DNA of 64,000 bases, from NCBI RefSeq assembly GCF_003003265.1, contig NZ_PVTL01000001.1:682001-746000 (forward strand), given 5' to 3'. How positions within the stretch are numbered: the stretch's first letter is position 1; every line of letters begins with the position of its first letter. This stretch comes from Glaciihabitans tibetensis (GTDB lineage: Bacteria; Actinomycetota; Actinomycetes; Actinomycetales; Microbacteriaceae). Shown piece after piece: positions 18,885-57,606 of this stretch. The notes under the pieces are model-generated. The model saw nothing but the letters and a program-made list of their open reading frames with translations, ran no database searches and was not told the DNA's origin. The position numbers and the translations under genes are program-made.

Positions 18885-19661
18885 TCAGGCCGAAACGAAG
18901 TCGCTGATGTCGCCGACGTAGCGGGTGTTGTTCTCGGGAATGGGATCGACCGCGGCCAGCGCAATCTCCGCCGCGAACTCGCCCACGTTGTATAGGCGGC
19001 CGGCGGATTCCTTGCGTGCCCCGATCGCTCCGGGGTTCGCGCGCTCCAGCAGGGTGGCGGTGATGGTGCCCTCGATCATGTCACCGGAGACCACGACAAA
19101 CTCGATGCCCTTTTCCGTCAGGGCCGGGATCAGCGCACGGAGAGCATCTTCGCCCGCCCGCTTGCTCAGCGCAACCGGAAGGTACTCGGGCATCGTTTCG
19201 GTGCCGTGAATGAAGTGCGCCTGGTGGCTGGTGATGAACACAACTCGGGAACCGGGACCGAGCAGCGGCAGCGCCGCGGTGAGGAGGTTGACCTGGGCGT
19301 CGCGGTTGAGCTGCATCGCATAGTCGGCGGCCATTCCGCCCTCCATGCCCCCGGAGGCGTTCATAACGAGGATGTCGAGTCCGCCGAGTTCGTCCGTGAT
19401 CGTACTGAACAGGTTCTCGAGCGAAACCGGGTCGGTGAGGTCTGCGCCTACAGCGATGGCGGTGCCGCCGGCCTGCTGGATTGCGGAGACGAGCTTCAGC
19501 GCCCTGGCCTCCTTGTTGCGGAAATTGACCACGACACTTGCACCGGCTTTGGCGAGGTAGCCGACCGTGTCGGCGCCGATCCCTCGGGAGGATCCGGTCA
19601 CGAGGGCGCGCTTGCCGGACAAAGTTCCGGGCTGTAGTGGGTTGCTCACGACAGACGACAC
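18885..19661 (-). CDS. SDR family oxidoreductase
   Basis: A short-chain dehydrogenase/reductase of about 258 residues. It shows TGSSRGIGADTVG for cofactor binding and the NASGG structural motif. The catalytic area is atypical: FITSHQAHFIHG has a serine but the usual YxxxK is replaced by a less clear PVALSKRAGEDAL segment, so activity is not certain. GTG at 19661 has a GGAG site 6 bases upstream; longer GTG starts exist. It is divergent from the GDPD gene and heads the unit SDR-Nudix-UPF0303. Confidence 0.85.
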   Translation of the reverse strand: MSSVVSNPLQPGTLSGKRALVTGSSRGIGADTVGYLAKAGASVVVNFRNKEARALKLVSAIQQAGGTAIAVGADLTDPVSLENLFSTITDELGGLDILVMNASGGMEGGMAADYAMQLNRDAQVNLLTAALPLLGPGSRVVFITSHQAHFIHGTETMPEYLPVALSKRAGEDALRALIPALTEKGIEFVVVSGDMIEGTITATLLERANPGAIGARKESAGRLYNVGEFAAEIALAAVDPIPENNTRYVGDISDFVSA

Positions 19662-37663: not shown

Positions 37664-37747
37664 GCGCGGATGGCGGAATTGGTAGACGCGCTAGCTTGAG
37701 GTGCTAGTTCCTTTACAGGAGTGGGGGTTCAAGTCCCCCTTCGCGCA
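37664..37747 (+). tRNA. tRNA-Leu (GAG anticodon)
   Basis: The cloverleaf can be drawn: acceptor GCGCGGA with TTCGCGC (one G-U), D-arm, anticodon stem CTAGC/GCTAG with loop TTGAGGT (anticodon GAG, reading CUC/CUU), long variable arm typical of Leu, and T-arm GGGGG-TTCAAGT-CCCCC. The discriminator base is A. CCA is not encoded. Confidence 0.95.
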
Positions 37748-37783
37748 CAGAGGGAAGTTCGGTCCACGGATCGGGCCAGTTAT

Positions 37784-37921: not shown

Positions 37922-38620
37922 TCATTCGGCGGTCGGTGGCGTCCAGTCGTCAGCGTCCCAGCGATAGAAGGAGTCGGCGACCGAGTCCTTCGGGGACTTC
38001 CAGCGGTCCGGCACGTACGGCGAAACGTACGGGCTCAAGTCGGCCATTACCCGGGCGAAAGCCGGCTGGGGAGACTCATGATTCTGGCGCACGGCGACCG
38101 CCTTGGCCTTGTCCTGCTCCAGCAGGTGCACGAAGACGTCGTCGATCGAATACAACCAACGTCCCGTCACCCCGGCTTCTTCAGGCAGCGGGCCGGCGTC
38201 GGAATCGGCGAACACTCGAGCGATGTCGGACTCTGCATCGGGCTTCATCCTCTGGATGATGACGGTCAATGCCCGGTCCTCGGGGACCTCCCCATCGGGA
38301 ACCCAGCTGTAGAACTGCTTGGCCACCGAGTGCGAAGGGTTTTCCCAGTAGCTCGGGTACGGCGTGACGTATGGACCGATTTCCTCCGCAATCTGCTGGA
38401 ACGCTGGCAGCCCCCGCCGCTGCCCGGAGACCTCCGGGTCCTGCTTGCGATCAAGAACGTGGATGTAGAGGTCGTCATGGGACAGCAAAGAACGGCCGAT
38501 GACGCCGAGGTCTTGCGGTCGAGTGATCTGGTCGTAGTGCCCGAAAACGGCACCGACCTTGTCCTCGCTGCCGGGAACCATGTGACAGACGATCACATTG
38601 CGGAAGGGGCGGAAGGTCAT
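37922..38620 (-). CDS. TcmI family type II polyketide cyclase, tandem double domain
   Basis: A 232-residue protein made of two copies of the about 105-residue TcmI cyclase domain. Copy one has LGVIGRSLLSHDDLYIHVLDR and ends SVAKQFYSWVPDG; copy two has AGVTGRWLYSIDDVFVHLLEQ and ends SVADSFYRWDADD. The family catalyses regiospecific ring closure of aromatic poly-beta-ketones. It is the last gene of the polyketide operon. ATG 38620 is used; a TTG at 38662 would make a 4-base overlap with the monooxygenase stop, like most other junctions here. A fused double TcmI could close two rings or form an internal dimer (inference). Confidence 0.85.
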   Translation of the reverse strand: MTFRPFRNVIVCHMVPGSEDKVGAVFGHYDQITRPQDLGVIGRSLLSHDDLYIHVLDRKQDPEVSGQRRGLPAFQQIAEEIGPYVTPYPSYWENPSHSVAKQFYSWVPDGEVPEDRALTVIIQRMKPDAESDIARVFADSDAGPLPEEAGVTGRWLYSIDDVFVHLLEQDKAKAVAVRQNHESPQPAFARVMADLSPYVSPYVPDRWKSPKDSVADSFYRWDADDWTPPTAE

Positions 38621-38658
38621 GGCTTCTCTCTTTTCGCTCGTTTGCTCGGAAGGTACGT

Positions 38659-41247
38659 TCAATCGCTCGACTGACCGGCAGTCGGCTGGGCGTCGACGAA
38701 GATGTTTTGCAGGTGATCGTTGATTCCGGCGAGCCTCGCCCTCGCGCTTCGATAACCGACATGACCGTCTGGCCGGATCAGGTATGCCGTGATTCCCCGC
38801 GGGTCATAGGTGTTTCGGAAGTTGCCGACGCTGTCCCGGAGAACAGAAATATCGAGATGCGCCGGTATCTGGGCATCCGGACTCGCGATCAGATAGGCAT
38901 CGATCTCGCCCGAAGACTGTCTCCGCACCGCAGCAGCGAGGTTCTCTGCTTCCACGACGTCGTCCTCGACGACCGTCTCGTCGACGTAGAGCAGCAGGGT
39001 CGATCTCGTCCCACGCGTGACTTCGAACAGTCGAAGGGGGTGGCCAACTCCGAACCTGGTCAGTCCATGCACGTCCGGTGCCCGCTCGCCCGGCGCCGGA
39101 CCACGGAGAACCCCGTCAGTACCGATGTCCTCGCCGACCAGGGCGCTGCCGGAGTAGCTCATGGTCATTTGCATTTCGAGGAGGAACTGTGCTTTCTCGT
39201 CCTCCATGTCCATCTCGTCGGTGAATGCGAGCGAAACGGCACGGTCGACAATCGCCTTACCTGCGGGCCTCCGCTCGGCATCGTAGCTGTCGAGCAAGGT
39301 GGGCGCGGCAAGTCCGCGGACGGCGAGAGCGAGCTTCCAGCCCAGATTCCACGCGTCTTGAATGCCAGTGTTCATGCCTTGCCCGCCGGCTGGTGGATGC
39401 AGGTGTGCTGCGTCACCGGCGACAAAGACGCGACCGGTGCGGTACCTGTCGACGATGCCGTGCTTGATGCGGAAGGTCGAGGACCATCGCAGGTTGCTCG
39501 CGGTCGTTGGCTCGGGTGCCAAGTCGTCGAGCACGGCTTGGATGTCTGCGAGGGACGGGGGCGTGTACTCCTGCCAGAATCCGGCCGGCACAATCCCCGA
39601 CCCGATCGTCTTCTGCAGTGGTTGTGGAGCCAAGGTCGCAACCCGGTAGCGTCCGTCGCCCGGCAGCGGAACGCAGACCAGCATCCCGGTGAAGTCGCCG
39701 TCGTCCTCGATCCGAACGAAACGCAGGAGATGGCCCTTCGGCATGGTCCAATCGAGTTGGACGTCACCCAACATGAACAGCTGCGGGAACATCGAGAGGC
39801 CGCCCTCGAACTGAAGCCCGAGGCCCGCGCGGACCACGCTGTGAGCACCGTCACAGCCAACCAGATACTTCGCTCGCGTCACCGTCGTTTCACCGGAGGC
39901 ACTCGTCAGCGTCGCGGTCACCCCATCGGGGTCCTGATCGAAGGAGACGAGCTCGACGCCGCGTTCAACGGTGACTCCGAGCGAGGCGAGCCGGTCGCTC
40001 AGAATGCGTTCTGTCTCGTATTGCGGCAGGCCGAGGTGCGCATACGGAAGGTCACTCAGCCCCGCCCAGTCAACCTGATGGGTCTGCTTCCCGTTCACGT
40101 ACACCGTCTGCCCGTGCAACCAGATCCCGTTTCGAATCGCCTCCGCGACGACGCCCTGGTCTTCCCAGATTTCCATCGTCCTGCAGTGGATGCCGATCGC
40201 CTTGTCGGCCCGGGCGGCAGCGTCCGGCCGCTTCTCGATCACGCGCACGGCTATTCCCCTGCGGGCCAATTCGATGGCACAGGTCAGTCCCACCGGCCCG
40301 CTTCCGACCACCAGTACATCGAGTTCGCTTGTTGCAGTGCCGCCGCGTGTGGTGACATCGTTGGCCGCGGTCGGTGCTGCGGCGACTGCTGCCTCGGGCG
40401 GGTCTGACGCGGCTGGCGCTTGTGTTGGTGCTGCTGCCGGTGCCGGTGTGGCTGCCGCTGCGACTGGCGGTACCGGAACGGGCACTTCCGTCGGCCTCGG
40501 CGTCGGTGCTTTCGCCCGTCCTGCGACAGTCCGTGCTGCGACAGTCGGGGCTCCGACGGCCGGGGCTGCGACGGTCCGGGATGCAGTGGAGTAACCCACC
40601 GCAGGAAATTCCGGCGTGCCCGGGGTTCGTTGGTGCTGAGCTGGGCGCCAGCGAATCTCGAACACCCGCCGCGCGAACTCGACGGACAGCCACCGGGCCA
40701 GCGGGCCACTTTGGTCGGCGTGCGACGGATCCTCGACCCAGTTGATGAAATCCTGCTCGGTCTCCCATTCGGCGAAGATGTGGTAAACGAACGATCCTGG
40801 CTCTTTGAGCAGTTCTTCGCGGATCAGGCCCGGCGTGCCCGCCAACCGGGAGGCAACGATCTGGTACGCGCGCTCGAACGCCTCCTCTTCTCCCGGGCTG
40901 ATCCTCGTGGTCAGGTCGACTCGGATCGGCAGCGGCTTCGTCGCCGAGACGGTGCTCACCAGCTCGTACGTGCTTCTGGCCGCGTCCTCACGTAGATCAC
41001 GCAGTCCCGCGGTCAGAGCCTCACGCTGTTCACTGCGGCCGAACGCATCCACCGCGTCGCGGTCGATCCAGTCGCTGGTGATGACGAACGTGCGTGAGTC
41101 GTCGAGATCACGGGAAAGCTCCTGTCGCACGTTGCCGGGCACCCGGCTGATCTCGGCAGCCGCGCTCGCCCAAGCGTCTTGGAACTCGGCCTCCATGCCC
41201 TCCCGGGCGCGCATTCGGAGCACCGTTCTGATCGCTGGTTCGCTCAC
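38659..41247 (-). CDS. FAD-dependent aromatic polyketide monooxygenase with two N-terminal ABM domains
   Basis: An 862-residue tailoring oxygenase. Residues 5-95 and 105-200 are two antibiotic-biosynthesis-monooxygenase (ABM) domains. Residues 201-308 are an Ala/Pro/Thr/Val linker with a tandem repeat. From 310 a class A flavoprotein hydroxylase begins with VVGSGPVGLTCAIELARRG, and has the FAD ribityl motif VFVAGDAAHLHPPAGGQGMNTGIQD. A C-terminal thioredoxin-like domain follows, as in phenol and polyketide hydroxylases. ABM domains oxidise anthrone-type intermediates to quinones without cofactor, so one protein may perform two kinds of ring oxidation. It is coupled by a 4-base overlap to the chain-length factor. 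Confidence 0.9.
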   Translation of the reverse strand: MSEPAIRTVLRMRAREGMEAEFQDAWASAAAEISRVPGNVRQELSRDLDDSRTFVITSDWIDRDAVDAFGRSEQREALTAGLRDLREDAARSTYELVSTVSATKPLPIRVDLTTRISPGEEEAFERAYQIVASRLAGTPGLIREELLKEPGSFVYHIFAEWETEQDFINWVEDPSHADQSGPLARWLSVEFARRVFEIRWRPAQHQRTPGTPEFPAVGYSTASRTVAAPAVGAPTVAARTVAGRAKAPTPRPTEVPVPVPPVAAAATPAPAAAPTQAPAASDPPEAAVAAAPTAANDVTTRGGTATSELDVLVVGSGPVGLTCAIELARRGIAVRVIEKRPDAAARADKAIGIHCRTMEIWEDQGVVAEAIRNGIWLHGQTVYVNGKQTHQVDWAGLSDLPYAHLGLPQYETERILSDRLASLGVTVERGVELVSFDQDPDGVTATLTSASGETTVTRAKYLVGCDGAHSVVRAGLGLQFEGGLSMFPQLFMLGDVQLDWTMPKGHLLRFVRIEDDGDFTGMLVCVPLPGDGRYRVATLAPQPLQKTIGSGIVPAGFWQEYTPPSLADIQAVLDDLAPEPTTASNLRWSSTFRIKHGIVDRYRTGRVFVAGDAAHLHPPAGGQGMNTGIQDAWNLGWKLALAVRGLAAPTLLDSYDAERRPAGKAIVDRAVSLAFTDEMDMEDEKAQFLLEMQMTMSYSGSALVGEDIGTDGVLRGPAPGERAPDVHGLTRFGVGHPLRLFEVTRGTRSTLLLYVDETVVEDDVVEAENLAAAVRRQSSGEIDAYLIASPDAQIPAHLDISVLRDSVGNFRNTYDPRGITAYLIRPDGHVGYRSARARLAGINDHLQNIFVDAQPTAGQSSD
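40518..40577 (-). repeat. 15-bp tandem repeat, 4 units, in the monooxygenase linker
   Basis: Four 15-base units of GTCCTGCGACAGTCC type encode five-residue TVAAP/TVAAR steps in the linker between the ABM and FAD domains; a partial fifth unit follows. Confidence 0.8.
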
Positions 41248-42512
41248 GAGATCGCCTCCTCGGCAACGTCTTCGAGATCGGCGGCGGTGACCTTCCGCAG
41301 CACCATTGAGCTGTTAAATCCGCCGAAGCCGCGTGCGTTGATCAGCACGACGTCGAGGTCGAGCTCGCGGGGCACGCGCACGAGATCGAGTCCGTACGCC
41401 GGATTGGGCTGATCGAGGTTGCCAACCGCCGGCGCGACACCCTCGCGGATTGCCAGCAATGCAGTCGCCACGCTGAGCGCCGAACCGCCTGCGTTGAGCC
41501 GACCGACGAATCCCTGCGGCGCCGTCACCGGTACGGAGCCGATCCGGTCGCCGAACACCCTTCGCAGCGCTGACGCCTCCAGGGCGTCCAGTTCGGCAAC
41601 TCCCGCCCCATCGGCGATGACCAGGTCGATGTCCTCGGCCGTCAGGCCCGCATCCGCGATTGCAAGGTTCATCGCCCGGGCCATGTGCGTCGCGTCCGGC
41701 GCTGGCGCATTGGGGTCGTACGCGTCGTGGGTTGCGGCATAGCCGGCGATTTCCCCATATATCTGAGGACTTCCGCGTTTCACCGCGGTGCGAAGATCCT
41801 CGACCAGCAGCACAGCCCCGCCCTCACCGGGTGCGTACCCGTTGGCCTGCTTGTCGAACGGTTTGTAGCCAGCACGTGGGTCGTCCGACGTAGTCAACCT
41901 TCCGCTGCTGCCGTAGCAGGTCAAGGCGTAGGGCGACAGCGGGGCTTCGGTTCCGCCGCCGATGACTGCCGTGGTTCCCCGACGAACAACCCGCCGCGCG
42001 TGGCCGAGGCTGTCCAGACCGCCGGCACCCTCGGTCACAAGTACGCTGGCGGGACCCTTCGTGCCGTGCCGGATCGAGGACTGCCCGGTACTGGCCGCAT
42101 AAAACCAGGCGATGGACTGGTAGGCACCGACCGCACGAGGGCCTTTGCTGTACAGGCCCGTCATCTCCCGTTGGCCGAACTCGTTGCCCCCGGAACCGGC
42201 TGCGAGAGCCACCGAGGTTGCGTACGGACTGTGGTCGGCAGGGTTGTAACGGGCATCGTCGAGAGCCAATTGTGTTGCGGCCAGGGACATCCAGGTCCAG
42301 CGGTCGGTCTGCACCACCAGCCGCGGGTCTACCTGGTCAGTCACGTCGAATCCGTCTACCTGGCCAGCAATCGTGGTGGTGTAGGGCGTCGGATCGAAGG
42401 CAGAGATGCGACGCACATTCAGTTCGCCGGCAAGGATGCTCTTCCAGTGCTGATCCGCTCCGATTCCGCTGGGCGCGATTACGCCGATGCCGGTGATCAC
42501 CACGCGAGTCAT
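41244..42512 (-). CDS. Type II PKS chain-length factor (ketosynthase beta)
   Basis: A 422-residue KS-fold protein that pairs with KS-alpha and sets polyketide chain length. The active-site cysteine is absent: the site reads [16 protein letters not shown], with G162 aligned to the catalytic Cys (often Gln in other CLFs). The KS-alpha His-containing motifs are also replaced ([25 protein letters not shown]). It lies directly after KS-alpha with a 4-base overlap, the universal order for minimal type II PKS. Chain length cannot be deduced by eye. Confidence 0.93.
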
Positions 42513-43785
42513 GCCGCCACCTCGGACTTCGCGAGCACGATGGCCGACTGGAACCCGCCGAAACCGCTGCCCACCGAAACCACGACGTCAACCGGCATCT
42601 CCCGAGCGATCTTGGGAACATAGTCCAGATCGCACTCGGCATCGCGGTTCTCCAGATTCGCGGTGGGTGGGACGACGCCGTGCTCGATGGCGAGGCTGCA
42701 GGCGACCAACTCGATGGAGCCGATCGCACCCAGCGAATGCCCGACCATGGATTTGATCGAGCTCATCGAGATGTCATAGGCGTGCGCACCGAGGCTGCGC
42801 TTGACTGCGGCGGTCTCGTGTCTGTCATTCTGCTTCGTGCCCGAGCCGTGGGCGTTGACATAGTCGACCGCTGTCGGGTCGATTTTGGCCTGGCCGAGCG
42901 CCGCATCGATTGCGGCGCTCATCTCCACTCCGTCAGGCCGCAGCCCCGTCATATGAAACGCATTGCACCTATTGGCGAAGCCGCCAATCTCGCAGTAGAT
43001 ATGAGCGCCCCGCGCCCGAGCGCTGGTGTACTCCTCCAGGACCATCACCGCCCCGCCCTCGCCCATCACGAATCCGTCACGGGTAGCGTCGAAAGGCCGC
43101 GAAGCGTGCTCGGGATCATCGTTTCGCGCAGACGTCGCACGAATAGTGTCGAAACAGGCGACAGAGATCGGCGAGATGGGGGCGTCACTTGCCCCGGCGA
43201 TGACCACGTCCGCGTCGCCGTCCTGGATCAGTTGGGTGCCGTATCCGACGGCGTCGATGCCGGACGTGCAACCGGTCGACATGACCGACGCCGGCCCATG
43301 CGCGTGAAACCGGACCGCGAGTTCGGTCGCCGCACTGCTGGGGATGAGCGAGTTGTACAGGAACTTCGACCCGTATGCAGGATCGACCAGCCAGTCCCGA
43401 CCGTGGTTACTGACGTTTACGTATTCGTCCTCGAGCCGCATGGTTGCGCCGACCGCGCTTCCCACGCTGATGGCGAGCCGGTTGTGATCGACTCCTGTCC
43501 CGGAACGCAGGTCCAAACCGCTGTCCGCGACCGCCTCATCTGCTGCAACCATGGCGAACTGGATAAAGCGGTCGTTGCGGTAGATCTCCTGCGGCGTCAG
43601 TCCGGAGGCCAGCGGGTCGAAGTCGGCTTCCGCGGCGATCTGCGATCGGAACCGCGCGGGGTCGAAGTGGCTGATCCTGCGGGTGGCGGTGCGACCCTCG
43701 GTCAGCAAGTTCCAGAACGCCTGCTTCCCGACGCCACCCGGTGCAACGACCCCGACACCGGTGACGACGACCCTCCGTGAGCTGT

Positions 43786-43789
<4 letters not shown>
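42509..43789 (-). CDS. Type II PKS ketosynthase alpha
   Basis: A 426-residue ketosynthase that catalyses decarboxylative condensation of malonyl-ACP. The catalytic triad is complete: C174 in [13 protein letters not shown]314 in [11 protein letters not shown], and H351 in GHSLGAIGS. The TSGIDAVG pattern is that of aromatic PKS KS-alpha and not of FabF. It overlaps the cupin gene and the CLF gene by 4 bases at each side. Confidence 0.95.
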
Positions 43790-45095
<1,306 letters not shown>

Positions 45096-45099
<4 letters not shown>

Positions 45100-46595
45100 G
45101 CTGGGGTGACCTCCGTCTTTGGTGGAGCTTGGGGTACGCCGCGAAGCCGGATCGGCTCCGCGGGGGCTGGGACGGCGCGCACAACATCCGCCGTCAGGGA
45201 ACGAACATGGAGTCCCTGCTGACTGATCTCGGCCGCGCTGGCGAGCAGGCTGGGCATTTCCCGGTCGAGGAACTGAATATCATGCCGGTCGGCGCGGATG
45301 TCGGGGTGCCGGAGCAATGCTCGGTGCAGGTTCGCCGTGGTCGACAAACCTGGGCCGTCTACAGCCATTTCGGCCAAAGCGCGGTCCATTCTGGACAGCG
45401 CCTGATCCCGGGTCGGCGCCCACACGATAAGTTTGGCCAGGAGTGAGTCGTAGTGCGGACTGACCTGATCTCCCTCCCGGTACCCGGTATCCATCCGCGT
45501 CCATGGCCCTGCCGGCGCCCTGTAGACGTCGAGCCGGCCGGGCGTGGGTGCGAACCCCCGCGCTGGATCCTCCGCATTGATCCGGCACTCGATGGCGGCC
45601 CCGTGGCATCGGACGTCCTGTTGGCCGAAGGCGAGCGGCAATCCGTCGGCGATCAAGATCTGTTCGCGGACCAGGTCGATGCCCGTCAACATCTCGGTGA
45701 CCGGGTGCTCCACTTGAATCCGGGCATTCATTTCCATGAAGTAGGGCCTACCCGAGCCATCAACCAGGAATTCCATGGTCCCGGCGCCGGTGTACCCGAC
45801 AGAAAGCGCACCACGCACAGCCAAGGCCCCGATTTGTTCGCGCTGGGCGACCGTCAGGCGGGCGGCGGGGCCCTCCTCGAAGAGTTTTTGATGGCGGCGC
45901 TGCAGTGAGCAATCGCGCTCGCCGAGAGAGACGCCGTTTCCGTGCTGATCGCACAGCACCTGCACCTCTACGTGGCGCGCGCCGGCCAGGTACCGCTCCA
46001 CGTAGACGGCAGGGTCGTTGAAGACTGCCCTGGCCACCTCGCGGGTGCTGACATACGCTTCGCCAAAATCCGCCGCGCAATAGACGACACTTATCCCGCG
46101 ACCACCGCCACCGGCTGCAGCCTTGATGATGACGGGATACCCGATGTCGGTTGCGATCTCCTGCCCCTCGCGTACCGAGCGCACCGGGTCGACCACCCCG
46201 GGAAGCATAGGCAGCCCGGCCTTGTGCATGAGCCCGCGCGCCCTGGCCTTGTTACCCATGTCCTGCATGACCGAGGGTGAAGGACCGATGAAGGTCAAAC
46301 CCGCCGACTCGCAGATCTCCGCGAAATCCGGGTCCTCAGAGAGGAAGCCGTAGCCGGGATGGATGGCGTCCGCGCCGGTCTGCAGGGCCGCCTCGACGAT
46401 GTTGGGGATGTTGAGGTAGCTCCGTCGCGGCGCCGGCGGGCCGATGTTCACTGCGGTGTCCGCCAGTCGAACGATTTCGGAATCCCGATCGGCGGAGCTG
46501 TAGACAGCGACGACCTCGATACCCAGCTCCTGGCACGTCCTGGCGATTCGAACGGCGATTTCGCCTCGGTTGGCGATCAGCAGTTTGCGGATCAT
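45096..46595 (-). CDS. accC: Acetyl-CoA carboxylase biotin carboxylase subunit
   Basis: A 499-residue ATP-grasp enzyme that carboxylates biotin on AccB. Typical parts are KLLIANRGEIAVRIARTC at the N-terminus, the glycine-rich ATP loop KAAAGGGGRGIS, and EMNARIQVEHPVTEM near the active site. It is part of a three-gene carboxylase set (accDA, accB, accC) inside the polyketide operon and overlaps both neighbours by 4 bases, so it is probably dedicated to malonyl-CoA supply for the pathway. Confidence 0.95.
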
Positions 46596-47143
46596 GCTGC
46601 CTGCTCCTTCGGGTGAAGACGCAGAAGAACCTGGTCGTATTCGACGGATTCGCCATCGCTCACCAAGACCTCAGAGATGACGCCCGATTCGCCGGCCACG
46701 ATCGCGTTCATCAGCTTCATCGCCTCGATGATCGCCACCGTGGTGCCGGCCTCCACCGCGTCGCCGACCTGAACAAACGGTTCCGCCCCTGGTGACGGTG
46801 CGGCGAAGTAGCAGCCGACGAGGGGCGCTCGGACTGCGATGGTTATGTCATCGTGGATCGGCGGAGGCGCCGCCGCCGTCAGGGGGGCTGTCTCACCGGC
46901 GTGAGCCGGCCGCCGCCGATCGAGAAGCGGTTCTCCGGTACCCACCTGGACGGACCACTCGACCTCGATCTCGCGGTCGCCGCCGCGGACCCGCAGTCGG
47001 CGCACATCGCCAGGCAGCGTGCGTGCGAGTTCGGCCACTTCCTGTCGCAGCTCGAGCATCGATTCCGGGTTGGCGGATGGGAGGATTGCTGCCGGCTGAG
47101 GGACATCGCGGTTCGTTGATGCAGTCGAGTCGTCGAGTGTCAT
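46592..47143 (-). CDS. accB: Biotin carboxyl carrier protein of acetyl-CoA carboxylase
   Basis: A 183-residue carrier with the biotinylated lysine K143 in IIEAMKLMNAI in the C-terminal lipoyl/biotinyl domain. The N-terminal part is a helical domain and a Pro/Ala linker. AGGCGGCCAGG precedes the ATG. It separates the accDA and accC genes of the pathway carboxylase. Confidence 0.94.
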   Translation of the reverse strand: MTLDDSTASTNRDVPQPAAILPSANPESMLELRQEVAELARTLPGDVRRLRVRGGDREIEVEWSVQVGTGEPLLDRRRPAHAGETAPLTAAAPPPIHDDITIAVRAPLVGCYFAAPSPGAEPFVQVGDAVEAGTTVAIIEAMKLMNAIVAGESGVISEVLVSDGESVEYDQVLLRLHPKEQAA

Positions 47144-47153
47144 CCTGGCCGCC

Positions 47154-48866
47154 TCAGCTCGCGATTTCGGTCGTCAGGGGGGTCATCAGGGCCGCACCAC
47201 CGAGCCGGGAGAAGCGTTCCTGCCGACCCGACAAAAGGTCGGCGGGCGAGACATCGTTCAGCTCTTCCAGCTCCCGGACGATGACCTCGCGGAGCGTGCG
47301 AGCGCACGCAGCCGGGTCCGCTTGCGCCCCTCCGACCGGTTCGGGTACCACCGAGGTGGCGATGCCGCTGTGCAGCAGATGCGGTGCGCCGAGTTGCAAC
47401 GCCCTGGCCGCAGCGGGAGCCGATGACGCGCTCCGCCAGAGGATCGCCGCACACCCTTCCGGACTGATCACGGAGAGGAACGCATTTTCCAGCACCAGCA
47501 GCCGGTCCGACGTGCACAGCGCGAGGGCGCCACCGCTGCCGCCTTCACCGGTGATCACGGCAACCACCGGAACACGCAGCCGCGAGCTGCGCATAATGGC
47601 TTCGGCGATCGCGATGGACTGTCCGCGTTCCTCCGCGTCCGGGCCGGGGTGAGCGCCGGGGGTGTCGACAAAAGTGACCACAGGCATCCCGAACATCTCG
47701 GCATGCTCCATCAGGCGCACCGCCTTGCGGTAACCCTCCGGGTGGGCCATCCCGAAATTGTGAGCAACGAGCTCCTTGACCGTATGGCCCTTCTGGCTGC
47801 CGATTACCACGACAGACCGCCCGGCGAGCGATGCCACCCCGCCGACAACCGCAGGGTCATCGGCAAACGAACGATCACCGTGCAGCTCAACAAAATCGTC
47901 GAAGGCAAGCCGAAGGTAATCCGCTGTCGTCGGCCGATCGACGCTGCGGGCGGCCTGGACCACTTCCCACGAGTCACGCATCGCCGGAGACCCCGTCGAC
48001 CTCGTCGCCGCAGGCTCGGGAACAGGATCAGCTCCTGTGGTGGAGCTTTCGCCGGCGTGCAAGTCCGCCAAGCGGATCAGGAGGGACCGTAGGTCAGCCC
48101 TGTTCTCCACCCGGTCGACCAAACCGTGAAGGAGCTGCGATTCGGCTGCCTGGAAGTCGACGGGTAGCGCCGCACGGATAGTTTCCTGAACGACCCGCGG
48201 GCCAGCGAACCCGACGTGAGCGCCTCTTTCCGCGATGACGACCGAACCCAAACTGGCAAAGGATGCGGAGACACCCCCGTATGTCGGATCGGTGAGCACG
48301 CACACCGACAGAACGCCCGCCTCGCGAAGCCGCGCAAAGGCGACCGCCGTGCGAGCCATCTGCAGGAGCGAAAAGACGCCTTCCTGCATTCGTGCTCCGC
48401 CGCTCGCGCACACGACGATCAGTGGCTTCCGCTCGCGGAGCGCCAGCTCGGCCGCCTCGCTCACCCGGCGGCCGACTTCCAATCCCATGCTCCCGCCCAT
48501 AAACGAAAACTCCATAACGGCGAGAACCACTTCCCGCCCACCGAGGAGCGCGGCGCCGACGATAACCGCCTCCGATTCCCGGGAGTTGGCGTTCGCCGCT
48601 GCCAACCTGTCGCGATAAGGACGCGAGTCGGAGAAGGCGAGCGGATCAGGCATCACAGGGTCTAACTCGGCCTCGCGAAAACTATCTGGGTCCACCAGCA
48701 GCTCGATCCGGGCCCGCGCCCCCATCCGCACGTGGTGGTCACACTCGGGACACACCCACAGATTTCGATCGAGTCGCTTGTGGTAAATGAGGGCATCGCA
48801 GCCCGGACACTTGGTCCATTCAGCCCGGCCGCCGGGCAACGCCACCGGCTCCGAAGTGTGTGTCAT
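47154..48866 (-). CDS. accDA: Acetyl-CoA carboxylase carboxyltransferase, fused beta-alpha subunits
   Basis: A 570-residue fusion. The N-terminal half is AccD, with zinc-finger cysteines C20, C23, C39 and C42 and the GGSMGLEVGRRVSEAAE region. The C-terminal half (from about 290) is AccA, with ELHGDRSFADDPAVVGG and GMAHPEGYRKAVRLMEHAE. It transfers the carboxyl group from biotin to acetyl-CoA. Free-standing accA and accD are the E. coli form; fusions are known in actinobacterial polyketide clusters. A good AAGGAG site precedes the ATG. Confidence 0.94.
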   Translation of the reverse strand: MTHTSEPVALPGGRAEWTKCPGCDALIYHKRLDRNLWVCPECDHHVRMGARARIELLVDPDSFREAELDPVMPDPLAFSDSRPYRDRLAAANANSRESEAVIVGAALLGGREVVLAVMEFSFMGGSMGLEVGRRVSEAAELALRERKPLIVVCASGGARMQEGVFSLLQMARTAVAFARLREAGVLSVCVLTDPTYGGVSASFASLGSVVIAERGAHVGFAGPRVVQETIRAALPVDFQAAESQLLHGLVDRVENRADLRSLLIRLADLHAGESSTTGADPVPEPAATRSTGSPAMRDSWEVVQAARSVDRPTTADYLRLAFDDFVELHGDRSFADDPAVVGGVASLAGRSVVVIGSQKGHTVKELVAHNFGMAHPEGYRKAVRLMEHAEMFGMPVVTFVDTPGAHPGPDAEERGQSIAIAEAIMRSSRLRVPVVAVITGEGGSGGALALCTSDRLLVLENAFLSVISPEGCAAILWRSASSAPAAARALQLGAPHLLHSGIATSVVPEPVGGAQADPAACARTLREVIVRELEELNDVSPADLLSGRQERFSRLGGAALMTPLTTEIAS

Positions 48867-48981
48867 CGGGTCTCCTTATTTGCAGGTACTACAACCAGAA
48901 CGGCGAAGCGGGGCTCCTGGCGGCTCGACGAACTGTTGGTCGACATCAAGTCGTCCAATGAGTTGGCGGCGCAGGGTGAAT

Positions 48982-49314
48982 TCAGCCTTGAGGGGCCGGC
49001 GGCGTCCAATGGTAAAAGCGGTCGGCCATAGCGTCGAGCGGCGAAGCCCAATTTGGGTCGTAGGGCTCGATGTGCGGGCGCAACTCGTCACTGACGGCAC
49101 GGAAAGATGGCAATCGCTGCGCCGTTCGCATTGCATCTGACGCTGGCACTGCGAAGTCGATCAGGTGCACGTAGATACCGTGAAAGCGATACAGGGAGCG
49201 ACCGATGACGCCGATCTCCTGAGGCATTGAGGTCGCGTCCGAGCGGGCGAAAATGTCCGCTACTGCCGGGGCATCCTGCGAGCGCATCTTCGCGACGATC
49301 ATGATCTGTTGCAT
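48982..49314 (-). CDS. TcmI family type II polyketide cyclase, single domain
   Basis: A 110-residue TcmI-type cyclase: IGVIGRSLYRFHGIYVHLIDF in the middle and DAMADRFYHWTPP at the end match both halves of the double-domain protein at the other end of the operon. ATG 49314 has GGAG 6 bases upstream and places the first strand (MIVAKM) correctly. It is the first gene of the cluster, 115 bases before accDA. It probably closes a ring not handled by the double TcmI protein. Confidence 0.86.
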   Translation of the reverse strand: MQQIMIVAKMRSQDAPAVADIFARSDATSMPQEIGVIGRSLYRFHGIYVHLIDFAVPASDAMRTAQRLPSFRAVSDELRPHIEPYDPNWASPLDAMADRFYHWTPPAPQG

Positions 49315-49749
49315 GACTGACTCCACTTCATCAGGAACGATTGCGGCCGAACAAATGTCATCCCGGACGACTCCGACGAATCGAGAGCCAGCCCCGCGGA
49401 CATTCCAAACGCTAAAACAACTCACAGTCACAACACACCCACCCGAGGTATGAACTTGGTGCCGTCATCTCCCCCACCCCAGGAGCCAAAGCACCCCCAT
49501 CCGGTGGGCCATCCCCTCCCATGGGTCGAGGCGTCTCACCCAAAGTCGGAACCCGACCGAGCGCCGTGTCCGGACCGAGTCGGACTGACGACTGGCGAGG
49601 CAGTATCTCGATGAACTCCGTGAGCGTGAGCATGGCGGCATCCCGACCCACACGCCGTTCTCAAGCGGATGGCTGTATCGCCGTTTCCTGGACTGTCGTC
49701 CCGCACCTGCAGCCCACCTGCAGCCCACCAGCGGGCTACATGCGCGGGG
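49315..49749. other. 435-base gap between the polyketide operon and its regulator
   Basis: No confident gene. It must contain the operon promoter, which I could not place. A CCGGACCG octamer at 49570-49577, also present upstream of the regulator, and a nearby CGGACTG are possible regulator half-sites. A decayed carrier-protein-like reading at 49465-49633 is listed separately. Short CACCTGCAGCCC duplication occurs near 49706. Confidence 0.5.
49465..49633 (-). pseudogene. Possible decayed acyl-carrier-like fragment
   Basis: From ATG 49633 the frame reads MLTLTEFIEILP, then VRLGPDTALGRVP, like helix 1 and the loop of a carrier protein. A shift of frame then gives LDPWEGMAHRMGVLWLL up to a stop at 49465, where a carrier would have WDSMA. 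The attachment serine would be replaced by glycine. This is a weak pattern match by eye and may be chance. Confidence 0.2.
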
Positions 49750-50475
49750 CTACAGAGCAATGTTGTTGTTGACGAAAATAGCCAGCTGGATGCGGCCCCG
49801 CACGCCCAGGCGCCGCGAGACCGCGGTGATGTGGCTCTTGACCGTCGCATTACTGACCGACAGCAGGGCGCCGATCTCACCGTTAGTCATTCCCTCGGCG
49901 ACGAGGAGCGCAACCGCCCTTTGGCGTTCGGTCAGCCGATTCAAGGCACTGAGCTGCGCGGGAGTCTCCGCGGGTCCGGTCGGTTCGGCGGTCAGGAACT
50001 GCACGAGATGGCGGGCGAAGGCTGGGTCAAGAACGAGCTCGTCCTTCGCCAACGCGCGGATGCCGTCGACCAGGCGCGGCGCGGCGACCCACCGGGAAAG
50101 GTAACCTCTCACGCCGGCTCGCAACGCCTCTGCCAGGTCGAGCTCGGACTCAGTCTCGGCAAGGATCAGTACCGCTCGATCGCGACCGCACAATTCCCGG
50201 ACGGACTCCTCGTGCACGTTCTGTAGCAGGCCCTGACGGATGACGACAATGTGCGGGTCCACGAGGTCGGCCAGCGAGCATGCCGACGCGACGTCCACCA
50301 CCTCGCCCACGACGACCAGGTCGGGTTCGAGTTCGATCAACACCCGTAATCCGATGCGGTAGATCTCGTTGTCTTCGCACAGCAACACGCGAACAAATTC
50401 CGGCCCGGGGATGGGCGAGGTCTGGTGCAGGGATCGCGATGGATGGGAACCCGCACCCCTGTCAGATTGGAACAT
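49750..50475 (-). CDS. LuxR-type response regulator with atypical receiver domain
   Basis: A 241-residue regulator, likely controlling the polyketide operon beside it. The receiver starts FVRVLLCEDNEIYRIGLRVL, but the expected phosphoacceptor Asp is Arg (DPHIVVIRQGL), and the usual Thr and Lys switch residues are also changed (LILAETE, YLSRW). The C-terminal LuxR helix-turn-helix is intact (LTERQRAVALLVAEGMTNGEIGALL, then NATVKSHITAVSRRLG). It should therefore act without phosphorylation, perhaps sensing a ligand. ATG 50475 has AAGGGAG 7 bases upstream. No histidine kinase is adjacent. Confidence 0.9.
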   Translation of the reverse strand: MFQSDRGAGSHPSRSLHQTSPIPGPEFVRVLLCEDNEIYRIGLRVLIELEPDLVVVGEVVDVASACSLADLVDPHIVVIRQGLLQNVHEESVRELCGRDRAVLILAETESELDLAEALRAGVRGYLSRWVAAPRLVDGIRALAKDELVLDPAFARHLVQFLTAEPTGPAETPAQLSALNRLTERQRAVALLVAEGMTNGEIGALLSVSNATVKSHITAVSRRLGVRGRIQLAIFVNNNIAL

Positions 50476-50522
50476 CGTCAGGCTCCCTTGAATGGGTAGG
50501 ACATCGCAAGTGCATCCGTCAC

Positions 50523-50538
50523 CGGACCGCCCGGTCCG
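50523..50538. promoter_or_regulatory. Perfect palindrome upstream of the LuxR-type regulator
   Basis: CGGACCG-CC-CGGTCCG is a perfect inverted repeat 48 bases upstream of the regulator start. A further CGGACCG is at 50583-50589. It is a candidate operator for autoregulation; GC-rich composition makes chance occurrence possible. Confidence 0.4.
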
Positions 50539-50748
50539 TTCGCTCGCCGTCACTCAGGACCCGGCCCCACGAATTTCCCGGGCGGACCGTTTAGTGACGG
50601 ACACCTGAAGCTAGATCTACAGCTATACAGTGAAAATGCGGACGAATCTACCGATTGTTCCGTGCGAGTGGAGGCTGATTGATAACCGACCGGGAGCACT
50701 CGGGCAGTCGCAACGAAGATCGATCGTCCGGTCCCTCATGATGAAACT

Positions 50749-53823: not shown

Positions 53824-54010
53824 GCTGCGCACCTCCAGGGGGATGAGTTCGTCCGGCTGCTCGCACGATCGATAGCCCGATCAGCGGTTCCACCGAAGTG
53901 AACGATTAGTAAACGTGGGGTAAACGTTACGAGTTGAACCGGGGTGGAAGCTGAGCGTAGCACCACAGTCCTCGCCGGGATGGGACGGTCCGGCCGCAGG
54001 TTCCCCCACC

Positions 54011-54124
54011 GCATCTCCCCTAGCGTCCCGCCAGGCATCTCCCCTAGCGTCTCGCCCAGCATCTCCCCTAGCGTCCCGCCAAACACCTCCCCTAGCGTCT
54101 TGCCCAGCGTCTCCCCTAACGTCG
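54011..54124. repeat. 24-bp intergenic tandem repeat, about 4.7 units
   Basis: Units of GCATCTCCCCTAGCGTCCCG plus CCAG/CCCA follow each other without spacers. TCCCCTAGCGTC is the conserved core. Confidence 0.9.
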
Positions 54125-55830: not shown

Positions 55831-57606
55831 ATGACCGAATCAGACGACCCGCCTGAAGACAATTTCGAAGATCTGCAGCCCGAAGATTTGCCGTCGCGGC
55901 TGCCGCAGTCCGAACATGCGCACTCCGAACATGAGGAGCCCGCACATGCGCAATCCGAACATTCGCAGTCCGGATATGCGCAGTCCGGATATGCGCAGTC
56001 CGAAGATGCGCAGTCCGAATATGCGCACTCCGGGTACGCGACCCAGGAGGAGCTGGCGGCGCTCAGCGCACTCGTGGCCGAGAACGAAAAGTTCCTTGGT
56101 CCGTTCCGCGTCGATGACGCTGACGTTCCCGACGAGGTTCCCCAGGACTGGGCGTTCGCCGATATCGTCAGCGCGTCGGTGTCAGACGCGTTCATCGACC
56201 CCAACGAGGCATGGCTCAGGGGCATAGATCGCGCTGGTCTGATCGACGACCTCATTGCCGTCGAGAACGCCGAGGCGGTTCTGCATGCCCGCCGCACGGT
56301 GTTGATCGAGCGATACCGAGCGTTGTGCACCAATACCAGCGTTCCTGTGCGCGCTGCCTCGGTGCCCTCGGGGTGGAGCCCCGAGGTGATTACGCGACGG
56401 GAGATGATCACCGAGATCGCGACCGCCACCCGAAAGGCGGAAGCCACGGTCGAGCAGCTGTTCGCCGATGCCGAGATTCTTCACTCGTCCCTGCCGTCAA
56501 CCATGGACGCGATGTTTGAGGGGCGGATCAGCTACCGGCACGCGACTGTGATTGCTTCCCAGGCTCAGGATGTGCCCGAAGAGATGCGTCATAAGTTCGA
56601 GGAGACCGTGCTGCCGGTCGCGGCCACGGCGACGGTGCCGCGGTTGAAGCAGCGCGCGCGAATCGTCAGGGAGCGAATGCACCCGGAATCAATCGACGTC
56701 CGCGCCAAAAAAGCCGTTCGCGGCCGCTATCTGGAAGTAGACCCAGCTGGCGATGGGATGGCTACCCTCACGGCGAAGCTGCCGGCCGTCGAGGCGGTCG
56801 GTATCTACAACCGATGCACCGAAACGGCAATCGCGTTGCAGGGACCGGACGAGGATCGCAGTCTGGGGCAGTTGAGAACCGATGTTTTTCGCGACATCCT
56901 GCTCAACGGCGAAATCCCCGTGGATTCTCCCGCACGCACGGTCGACGGTGGAGACGTGTTGGCGGGCGCAGCGGCGACCGGCATACGGGCGACGGTTGTC
57001 GTGATGGTGCCCGCGTTGACCCTGCTGAATCGCAGCGACGAGCCAGCGACGCTCGAGGGATACGGCCCGATCGATCACGAGAGCGCGAAGGTGCTTGCGG
57101 CGGGAGCGAATTCGTGGATTCGGGTGTTGACCCACCCGGAAACGGGAACGGTGTTGTCGGTGGGCCAAACTCGATACAAAGTCCCCGCATCAATGCGGCT
57201 GTGGCTGCGATTGCGAGACCAGACCTGCCGCTATCCGGGCTGTAACAGGTCGGCGAAATACTGCGACCTGGATCACGTTCTGGATTGGCAGTATGGCGGG
57301 CACACGAGCACTGAGAACCTCCAGCATCTTTGCCCGGCCCATCACAATGTGAAGGGCTACACGAGCTGGACGGTGCGGCACCTCGACAACGGAATCTTGG
57401 AATGGGTGTCCCCCGCCGGTCGCTCCCACATCACTGAACCGGCCATCCCCATCGGCTTCGCCTCGAGTTCAGTCCCGGCTGCGCCGCCGCCTGCCTCTCC
57501 GCCCGCGCCCGTTTATGGATTCACCGAGGCGTGGGAGCGCATGGAAGCAGACACCGATGACGACGGCTGGTACGCCCCGCCCACAGGAGAATCCACTCCG
57601 TTTTGA
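55831..57606 (+). CDS. DUF222 domain HNH endonuclease
   Basis: A 591-residue protein. Residues about 20-70 are a nine-unit Ser-Glu/Gly-His/Tyr-Ala-Gln repeat. The DUF222 domain spans about 120-440. The HNH nuclease domain near 465-510 has zinc cysteines in CRYPGCNRSAKYCDLDH, the catalytic His in DLDHVLDW, and LCPAHHNVKGYTSW. A Pro/Ala tail follows. These 13E12-like proteins are abundant in actinobacteria, but whether they act in defence or as selfish DNA is unsettled. It is flanked by tandem arrays on both sides. Confidence 0.9.
   Translation: MTESDDPPEDNFEDLQPEDLPSRLPQSEHAHSEHEEPAHAQSEHSQSGYAQSGYAQSEDAQSEYAHSGYATQEELAALSALVAENEKFLGPFRVDDADVPDEVPQDWAFADIVSASVSDAFIDPNEAWLRGIDRAGLIDDLIAVENAEAVLHARRTVLIERYRALCTNTSVPVRAASVPSGWSPEVITRREMITEIATATRKAEATVEQLFADAEILHSSLPSTMDAMFEGRISYRHATVIASQAQDVPEEMRHKFEETVLPVAATATVPRLKQRARIVRERMHPESIDVRAKKAVRGRYLEVDPAGDGMATLTAKLPAVEAVGIYNRCTETAIALQGPDEDRSLGQLRTDVFRDILLNGEIPVDSPARTVDGGDVLAGAAATGIRATVVVMVPALTLLNRSDEPATLEGYGPIDHESAKVLAAGANSWIRVLTHPETGTVLSVGQTRYKVPASMRLWLRLRDQTCRYPGCNRSAKYCDLDHVLDWQYGGHTSTENLQHLCPAHHNVKGYTSWTVRHLDNGILEWVSPAGRSHITEPAIPIGFASSSVPAAPPPASPPAPVYGFTEAWERMEADTDDDGWYAPPTGESTPF
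55906..56040 (+). repeat. 15-bp tandem repeat, 9 units, in the DUF222-HNH gene
   Basis: Nine 15-base units of CAGTCCGAACATGCG / CAGTCCGGATATGCG type encode QSEHA, QSGYA and QSEDA pentapeptides. A diverged unit also precedes near 55875. Confidence 0.95.

Follow-up and report, generated by a model that had tools for sequence, protein, structure and literature searches.

A complete, rarely hosted type II polyketide synthase cluster in the actinobacterium Glaciihabitans tibetensis

Gene content of the cluster

The DNA considered here, hereafter the window, is a stretch of 64,000 nucleotides from contig NZ_PVTL01000001.1 of Glaciihabitans tibetensis (Microbacteriaceae). Positions 37922-50553 of its minus strand hold an intact type II polyketide synthase (PKS) cluster of 12 genes, which run, 5' to 3', from a LuxR-type regulator through a TcmI-family cyclase, the acetyl-CoA carboxylase (ACC) components AccDA, biotin carboxyl carrier protein (BCCP) and AccC, an acyl carrier protein (ACP), an aromatase/cyclase (ARO), a cupin, ketosynthase alpha (KS-alpha) and the chain length factor (CLF) to an ABM-ABM-FAD monooxygenase and a tandem TcmI protein (Table 1). 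All are open frames without internal stops, in agreement with the initial annotation, which had described a complete and compact cluster on one strand, its genes mostly coupled by 4-base overlaps. By their coordinates, the 11 biosynthetic genes overlap by exactly 4 bases at seven of ten junctions, making a single operon likely; the remaining junctions are gaps of 115 bases (AccDA-TcmI), 10 bases (BCCP-AccDA) and, given the inferred ARO start, about 37 bases (ACP-ARO).

The KS-alpha carries the residues C174, H314 and H351, which the initial annotation had pointed out and which are invariant in eight aligned sequences. With this Cys-His-His set, an adjacent CLF that lacks the Cys, and a discrete ACP, the cluster contains a minimal type II PKS. 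Against the PDB, KS-alpha matches the actinorhodin (act) ketosynthase (1tqy_A) at 559.9 bits and the CLF matches the act CLF (1tqy_B) at 362.9 bits, the next match being FabF in both instances (324.3 and 248.9 bits, respectively). A search of the host genome with KS-alpha returned KS-alpha itself, the CLF and one FabF-like gene.

Table 1. Features of the cluster and the adjoining tRNA gene, in window coordinates
Feature	Coordinates	Strand	Remarks
LuxR/GerE-type regulator, atypical receiver domain	49750..50553	-	true start uncertain, probably internal
TcmI-family cyclase 1	48982..49431	-	PF04673 132.8 bits; start likely near 49314; 82% identity in G732
AccDA, carboxyltransferase of ACC, AccD and AccA in one protein	47154..48866	-	
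BCCP	46592..47143	-	EAMKLM motif; Biotin_lipoyl; TIGR00531 103.3 bits, under cut-off 115.2
Biotin carboxylase AccC	45096..46595	-	NF006367 616.9 bits, over cut-off 597
ACP, 88 aa	44833..45099	-	PP-binding 39.8 bits; GLDSL motif
WhiE-type monodomain aromatase/cyclase (SRPBCC)	44217..44795	-	start inferred; frame stays open upstream as far as 44996
Cupin cyclase, WhiE-II/TcmJ-like by position and fold	43786..44220	-	Cupin_2 55.1 bits
KS-alpha, C174/H314/H351	42509..43789	-	act KS best PDB match; tree
KS-beta / CLF	41244..42512	-	act CLF best PDB match
ABM-ABM-FAD monooxygenase fusion, 862 aa	38659..41247	-	two ABM stretches and FAD_binding_3, one ORF
Tandem TcmI-family cyclase 2	37922..38662	-	two PF04673 stretches
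tRNA-Leu(GAG)	37664..37748	+	adjoins operon 3' end; backbone gene, also in both congeners

Three of the genes named in the initial annotation are present and proved to be more elaborate than described there. The ABM-FAD monooxygenase has two ABM stretches ahead of its FAD part; the second of the two TcmI proteins is a tandem of two TcmI domains, its halves matching TcmI 1tuw and the cyclase 8is2 in the PDB; and the dedicated carboxylase joins AccD and AccA in one protein, the first half matching AccD models (TIGR00515 at 315.2 bits, slightly below the cut-off of 317.45) and the second half AccA models above their cut-off, along with matches to ACCA and Zn_ribbon_ACC. The ARO finds its best PDB match in the WhiE ARO/CYC 3tvr (203.9 bits, E 1.6e-59), with TcmN at 158 bits. 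In the regulator, GerE scores 52.5 bits, over its cut-off, and Response_reg 22.6 bits, under its cut-off of 30.2; the region in which receiver domains usually hold the phospho-acceptor Asp reads VVIRQGLL, and VIVRLGLL in the regulator beside a related cluster from the same family (genome G732), which is 63% identical but divergently oriented.

Relatives, host range and ancestry

A genome scan with a CLF profile confirmed 168 stretches, and the window proteins were compared with the best 80 of these and with ten further stretches. The gene order recurs in G732, with 59-87% protein identity per gene, and in whole or in part in named actinobacteria, a recurrence that excludes chance; the cupin, for example, is 81% identical in G732 and 74-81% identical in 20 Geodermatophilaceae loci. 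ACC genes precede the ACP in Geodermatophilaceae, the Kineosporiales group, Asanoa and some others, and among the Frankiaceae loci only in L076. Under a 60% coverage rule, AccDA, AccC, cupin, KS and CLF occur together in 41 of the 84 rows holding KS and CLF, window included. In 29 of 33 non-Frankia loci inspected, a single stop-free frame spans ABM and FAD, the exceptions being L040 (another frame), L063 (contig end), and L027 and L028 (no FAD part found). Eight ACC-bearing loci stood outside this check (L076, L096, L101, L102, L104, L105, L111 and L113), and these have no FAD part after the CLF, L102 having a partial one upstream on the other strand. A short-chain dehydrogenase/reductase (SDR) motif follows the CLF in all four Frankia-type loci examined and in none of five others, window included.

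The window cluster thus has what we term the ACC-bearing form, with AccDA-BCCP-AccC before the ACP and, downstream of the CLF, a single open frame that joins ABM and FAD; this form, with its ABM-FAD fusion, is a grouping of the present analysis rather than a published family. The cluster is a real, complete and rarely hosted member of this wider form of type II PKS cluster. Variations were seen among its relatives: G073 has a tandem TcmI (L026:9612-10295), 77% identical to that of the window, on another contig than its PKS cluster, and one Quadrisphaera metagenome-assembled genome (G171) holds two related ACC-bearing clusters (L027, L028) on separate contigs, for which duplication, strain mixture or binning are possible explanations.

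The comparison across Microbacteriaceae that the initial annotation had proposed used even samples of larger groups. TcmI-type cyclases occur in two of 398 genomes of the family (the host and G732; 85 genera, listed genomes of about 0.9 to 4.3 Mb) and in nine of 396 genomes of the order, host included, and two congeners (99% and 86% complete) have no TcmI (PF04673) and no KS-alpha beyond a FabF-like match. Such a cluster in this host group had been called unusual; it is indeed rare, but not unprecedented in view of G732, Agromyces silvae W11 and Cellulomonas flavigena, the last of which we take to be a member of the Micrococcales. To our knowledge, the host family is not known for spores. In a published review, whiE-like pathways are associated with sporulating genera of complex form (PMC4255298), and on that account the host would be an odd one. 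We rejected the idea that a type II PKS is new to the family, since a type II PKS cluster in A. silvae W11 is already in print (one sentence in PMC11294650); for Subtercola endophyticus a hit resembling kosinostatin has been reported, which does not necessarily represent a type II PKS of the present form (PMC9287328), and C. flavigena and Geodermatophilus obscurus were predicted in 2012 to hold pentangular clusters (PMC3462128). A Streptomyces-like host was likewise dismissed, on the host's family only. Among Geodermatophilaceae, 36 of 112 genomes carry a CLF of this clade (at a threshold of E 1e-120, with one hit far weaker than the others), a count for which as a rule 16 candidates were scored per genome, so that misses are possible; a Geodermatophilus species description reports antiSMASH hits to the formicamycin and xantholipin clusters (PMC12453565).

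A KS-alpha phylogeny, proposed in the initial annotation as a check, was built from 90 rows by a quick method with SH-aLRT support and rooted on the FabF sequences of the host and two congeners, which lie behind very long branches. The window KS-alpha pairs with that of G732 (support 98, starred), and the two adjoin Kineosporia, Kineococcus and relatives of the same order (97, starred). The wider group around them takes in 59 of the 90 rows (support 86, unstarred), including Geodermatophilaceae, Asanoa, two Amycolatopsis, some Streptomycetaceae and Actinomadura, and Frankia/Parafrankia, with the act KS outside; by way of the Frankia and Parafrankia relatives it includes the frankiamicin-type KS clade, strain EAN1pec itself being outside the data set. 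Related CLFs also occur in metagenome-assembled genomes titled Solirubrobacterales, Thermoleophilia, Thermoleophilaceae, Acidimicrobiaceae and Actinomycetota (L078, L082, L084, L088, L090, L091, L093 and L094). Plasmids were considered as a source of closer relatives and yielded none, the best KS-alpha among 94 plasmid records being 68% identical.

Trees of two gene blocks, each of 41 rows, place the cluster differently. One block comprised the upstream genes TcmI, AccDA, BCCP, AccC, ACP and cupin, and the other KS and CLF; the trees were of the quick kind, left out the repeats L029, L032, L041 and L046 as well as L026 (no KS), and excluded per-gene rows in which the match was under 60% of the query (under 70% for FAD and the second TcmI), and ARO was omitted because few loci passed (23 rows). 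In the upstream tree, the window and G732 are sister to 20 Geodermatophilaceae (support 100, starred), whereas in the KS and CLF tree they join the Kineosporiales type (98, starred). Swapping the placements costs 202 log-likelihood units for the upstream block (approximately unbiased (AU) test, p 1e-5) and 19.9 units for KS/CLF (AU p 0.010), the tested groups having been named after the trees were seen. Mean identities follow the same split: the six upstream genes are 6.5-20.3 points nearer Geodermatophilaceae than the Kineosporiales type, whereas KS and CLF are 5.7 and 3.4 points nearer the latter. By the same measure the ABM part is nearer Geodermatophilaceae and FAD about equal; the tandem TcmI groups with Geodermatophilaceae in its tree (99, starred), and in the FAD tree the window and G732 fall outside both groups. 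These conflicts indicate that the cluster is mosaic relative to the two groups. The change may have occurred on the Geodermatophilaceae side, since their KS/CLF are the least similar to those of Asanoa (73.4/61.8%, as against 77.1/67.4% for the window and 75.7/65.2% for the Kineosporiales type).

Predicted product and origin

Examination of the CLF bears on the length of the polyketide chain. In act numbering it carries N109, G112, M116, I133, A139, S140 and G161. As reported in PMC4383371, all training CLFs for products of at least 24 carbons have I or V at 133, A at 139 and S or T at 140; because the window CLF fits this pattern, its chain probably has at least 24 carbons. The Gly, CLF residue 162, stands where the act CLF has Gln161, a residue described as conserved in the known CLFs (PMC3691225). 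Of 86 collected CLFs, a set gathered with patterns from the same clade and including relatives of the frankiamicin producer, 83 have another residue in place of Gln161, mostly Gly or Ala; it is also missing in three of 12 plasmid CLFs chosen by hand, one of which, of spore-pigment type, has Glu. The literature searched for it yielded no mention of this loss, which is no proof of its being unpublished. We rejected it as a novelty, the CLFs without Gln not forming one clade (four changes on the tree) and the set being biased to the clade.

No SDR or ketoreductase was found within the cluster by motif and SDR-fold examination. The initial annotation had stated this absence for the window as a whole; it holds for the cluster, but two SDR-fold matches lie elsewhere in the window (about 1924-2499 and 19053-19613), at least 18 kb from the cluster. 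Also apart from the cluster are tandem repeats at 54002-54121 and 55874-56053, with steps of 12 and 15 bases, the second inside an ORF (55831-57606) with a DUF222 domain. The operon genes include no glycosyltransferase, methyltransferase, halogenase, exporter or resistance gene, and a dedicated phosphopantetheinyl transferase was sought in the window cluster and not found. In the genome at large, PF00698 (FabD-type) has one match in each of four genomes, host included, and PF01648 has a single match in the host, on another contig. The G732 cluster differs in having an extra AcpS-type phosphopantetheinyl transferase gene (L024:15449-15844) directly after its tandem TcmI.

Drawing on what is known of these protein families, from which the reactions, chain length, product class and operon organisation are all inferred, we propose the following route. 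AccDA, BCCP and AccC would supply malonyl-CoA; a housekeeping malonyltransferase and an AcpS-type phosphopantetheinyl transferase, encoded elsewhere in the genome, would charge the ACP; and KS-alpha/CLF would build an unreduced chain, probably of at least 24 carbons. The WhiE-type aromatase would close the first ring at C9-C14, the closure that TcmN/WhiE-type monodomain ARO/CYCs are reported to give when no ketoreductase acts (PMC12664062), and the cupin and two TcmI proteins would close further rings. The ABM-ABM-FAD fusion would then oxidise the core, probably to a quinone, although ABM proteins may be oxygenases or fidelity factors (PMC6689052). We therefore regard with good confidence the locus as an intact, probably horizontally acquired type II PKS operon for an unreduced, long-chain aromatic polyphenol. 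Because the operon lacks a ketoreductase, an exporter and a resistance gene, a coloured polyphenol that stays with the cell is a likelier product than a secreted antibiotic, and gene content, together with the absence of glycosylation, export and resistance genes from the operon, weakly suggests a role as pigment.

Several observations weigh against this interpretation. The product and its expression are predictions from genes, and the proposed chain length depends on three residues and the training set of one paper. A sigma-70 scan returned no promoter (0 against 1.8 expected), a result that says little for an actinobacterium. The cluster has a GC content of 0.63-0.67, the same as its flanks, so a recent transfer is not indicated; no mobility gene was found among ten flanking proteins scanned, a subset of the window genes; the window holds no second copy of the tRNA-Leu end that could mark an attachment repeat; and the absence of the cluster from one congener is less sure because that genome is only 86% complete. 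The last operon gene ends 173 bases from the tRNA-Leu, whose 3' end faces the operon. Integration there as an att-flanked island was considered and is not borne out, given the lack of a repeat, the location of the G732 cluster elsewhere, outside the compared backbone by about 10 kb at its far end, and the congener contigs, which end 2 and 148 bases past the tRNA, too soon for an empty site to be read. Vertical descent of the cluster within the order, from a common ancestor and followed by loss in almost all of the family, would accord with the flank-like GC content, with the placement of the KS/CLF of both family members beside Kineosporiales/Quadrisphaera-type sequences of the same order, and with the cluster's identity to G732, which overlaps that of the backbone genes compared (42-79%). 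We hold it to be unlikely, since the cluster is confined to two sampled family genomes and neither congener, occupies different chromosomal sites in the host and G732, and has an upstream block whose placement with Geodermatophilales is strongly supported and whose Kineosporiales-type placement is rejected. These same features make horizontal acquisition probable, and the different site in G732 favours separate arrival or relocation.

The nature of the product admits other readings. With the pathway unchanged, the molecule could be released as an antibiotic or a signal instead of staying cell-bound as a pigment, as related classes include bioactives and frankiamicin A is weakly active on Staphylococcus aureus (PMC4383371); this is a possibility of lesser weight, given the missing tailoring and export genes, and given that the genes lying past the regulator, for an amino acid permease and a stress protein, are also present in the congener G510 (about 80% DNA identity), where no cluster was found. 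A tetracenomycin-like tetracyclic product from a 20-carbon chain would suit the lack of a ketoreductase, which is shared with the tetracenomycin subclass (PMC4383371), and an ARO of TcmN/WhiE type; the CLF residues I133/A139/S140 argue against it, as do an ARO nearer WhiE than TcmN and two ABM stretches, in contrast to the lone, more distant homologue described for that subclass (PMC4383371), and we consider it improbable, somewhat more so than vertical descent. That the KS pair instead serves fatty acid or aryl polyene synthesis is hardly conceivable: FabF models do match both proteins, as for the KS fold generally, with NF005589 over its cut-off on KS-alpha, but the act proteins are by far the best PDB matches, FabF sequences sit at the end of very long branches, and the pair is accompanied by TcmI, ARO and ABM partners. 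A FabF origin of the KS was rejected on the same scores and tree placement.

If our reading of an unreduced aromatic polyphenol pathway is true, an actinobacterium outside the usual producers has a compact route to such a compound. The open-access literature searched, which excluded subscription papers, gave no characterised product for the ACC-bearing form, and one such product would inform many genomes, given how widely the clade's CLF occurs in sampled Geodermatophilaceae, at least one member of which has been described as black-pigmented and as a carrier of type II PKS clusters (PMC12453565). The conflict between KS/CLF and the other genes offers a natural way of testing whether a KS/CLF pair is transferred between clusters in one piece. 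We put forward only tentatively the fuller proposal that the pair was exchanged as a unit with an ancestry unlike the rest of the operon, and that clusters of this form (ACC, ABM-ABM-FAD fusion, tandem TcmI, no ketoreductase, CLF lacking Gln161) produce a class of unreduced, long-chain polyphenol pigment not yet described, which Geodermatophilaceae, Kineosporiales and Asanoa share and which was passed on to a Microbacteriaceae-type host that probably does not sporulate.

Comparison with known systems

The closest architecture is that of the ACC-bearing clusters of Geodermatophilaceae (Geodermatophilus, Modestobacter and Blastococcus), which share the order TcmI, AccDA, BCCP, AccC, ACP, ARO, cupin, KS, CLF. 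ABM stretches follow the CLF, with FAD in 19 of 20 loci and a tandem TcmI within the fetched stretch in ten of 20, and after G732 these clusters hold the nearest relatives of the window's upstream genes. They differ in having two divergent LuxR-type genes in 19 of 20 loci, where the window has one, co-directional, and the window KS/CLF group instead with Kineosporiales-type clusters.

Frankiamicin A, a pentangular polyketide, is the product of the fkm cluster of Frankia sp. EAN1pec, and the Frankia set has been placed in a large diverged clade of solely uncharacterised clusters, on data of December 2013 (PMC4383371). EAN1pec was represented here by relatives in the same wide KS-alpha clade, such as Parafrankia L045, L061 and L083. 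Like the window, fkm has TcmI, ACP, ARO, cupin, KS and CLF in the same order, two ABM domains and a CLF with N109; it differs in a ketoreductase after the CLF and in separate ABM proteins, the window having no ketoreductase in the cluster and its ABMs fused to FAD. Table 2 of PMC4383371 lists for fkm a ketoreductase and a conservon, and no ACC, FAD monooxygenase or second TcmI. A conservon (kinase, roadblock, DUF742, GTPase) beside the window regulator was not found among the proteins scanned at 49.4-53.8 kb, which are the regulator, a Usp protein, a permease, a Rho_N protein and ORFs without a match. Pentangular polyphenol clusters in general combine TcmN-, TcmJ- and TcmI-type cyclases with two ABMs, all present in the window, where the ABMs are two domains of one protein, and a C-6 ketoreductase is said to be invariable in them (PMC4383371). 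As this expected ketoreductase is missing from the cluster, we do not file it as pentangular.

The whiE cluster encodes an ABM/cyclase protein (WhiE-I), cupin, KS, CLF, ACP, ARO, TcmI and FAD hydroxylase. Each of these functions has a counterpart in the window, but there the ABMs are fused to FAD; WhiE-I itself has a C-terminal cyclase domain (PMC6689052). Of the whiE/pentangular type suggested in the initial annotation, the whiE-like enzyme set and the missing ketoreductase stand, whereas the CLF lies apart from the Streptomyces spore-pigment-type CLF compared (L154), which forms a long separate branch, this being a single sequence and the placement of long rows unsure. Plasmid p1 of S. fungicidicus carries a SchA/CurD-type protein, cupin, KS, CLF, ACP and SRPBCC in a row; its CLF also lacks Gln161 (Glu), its KS-alpha is 65% identical to that of the window, and the 4.4 kb seen holds no ACC or ketoreductase. 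The persiamycin A cluster of Streptomonospora sp. PA3, compared by description rather than by sequence, likewise has an in-cluster ACC (perHIJ), TcmI, ARO, cupin and KS/CLF called WhiE paralogues, and adds 3-oxoacyl-ACP reductases, glycosylation and methylation genes and a separate FAD protein (PMC7296137).

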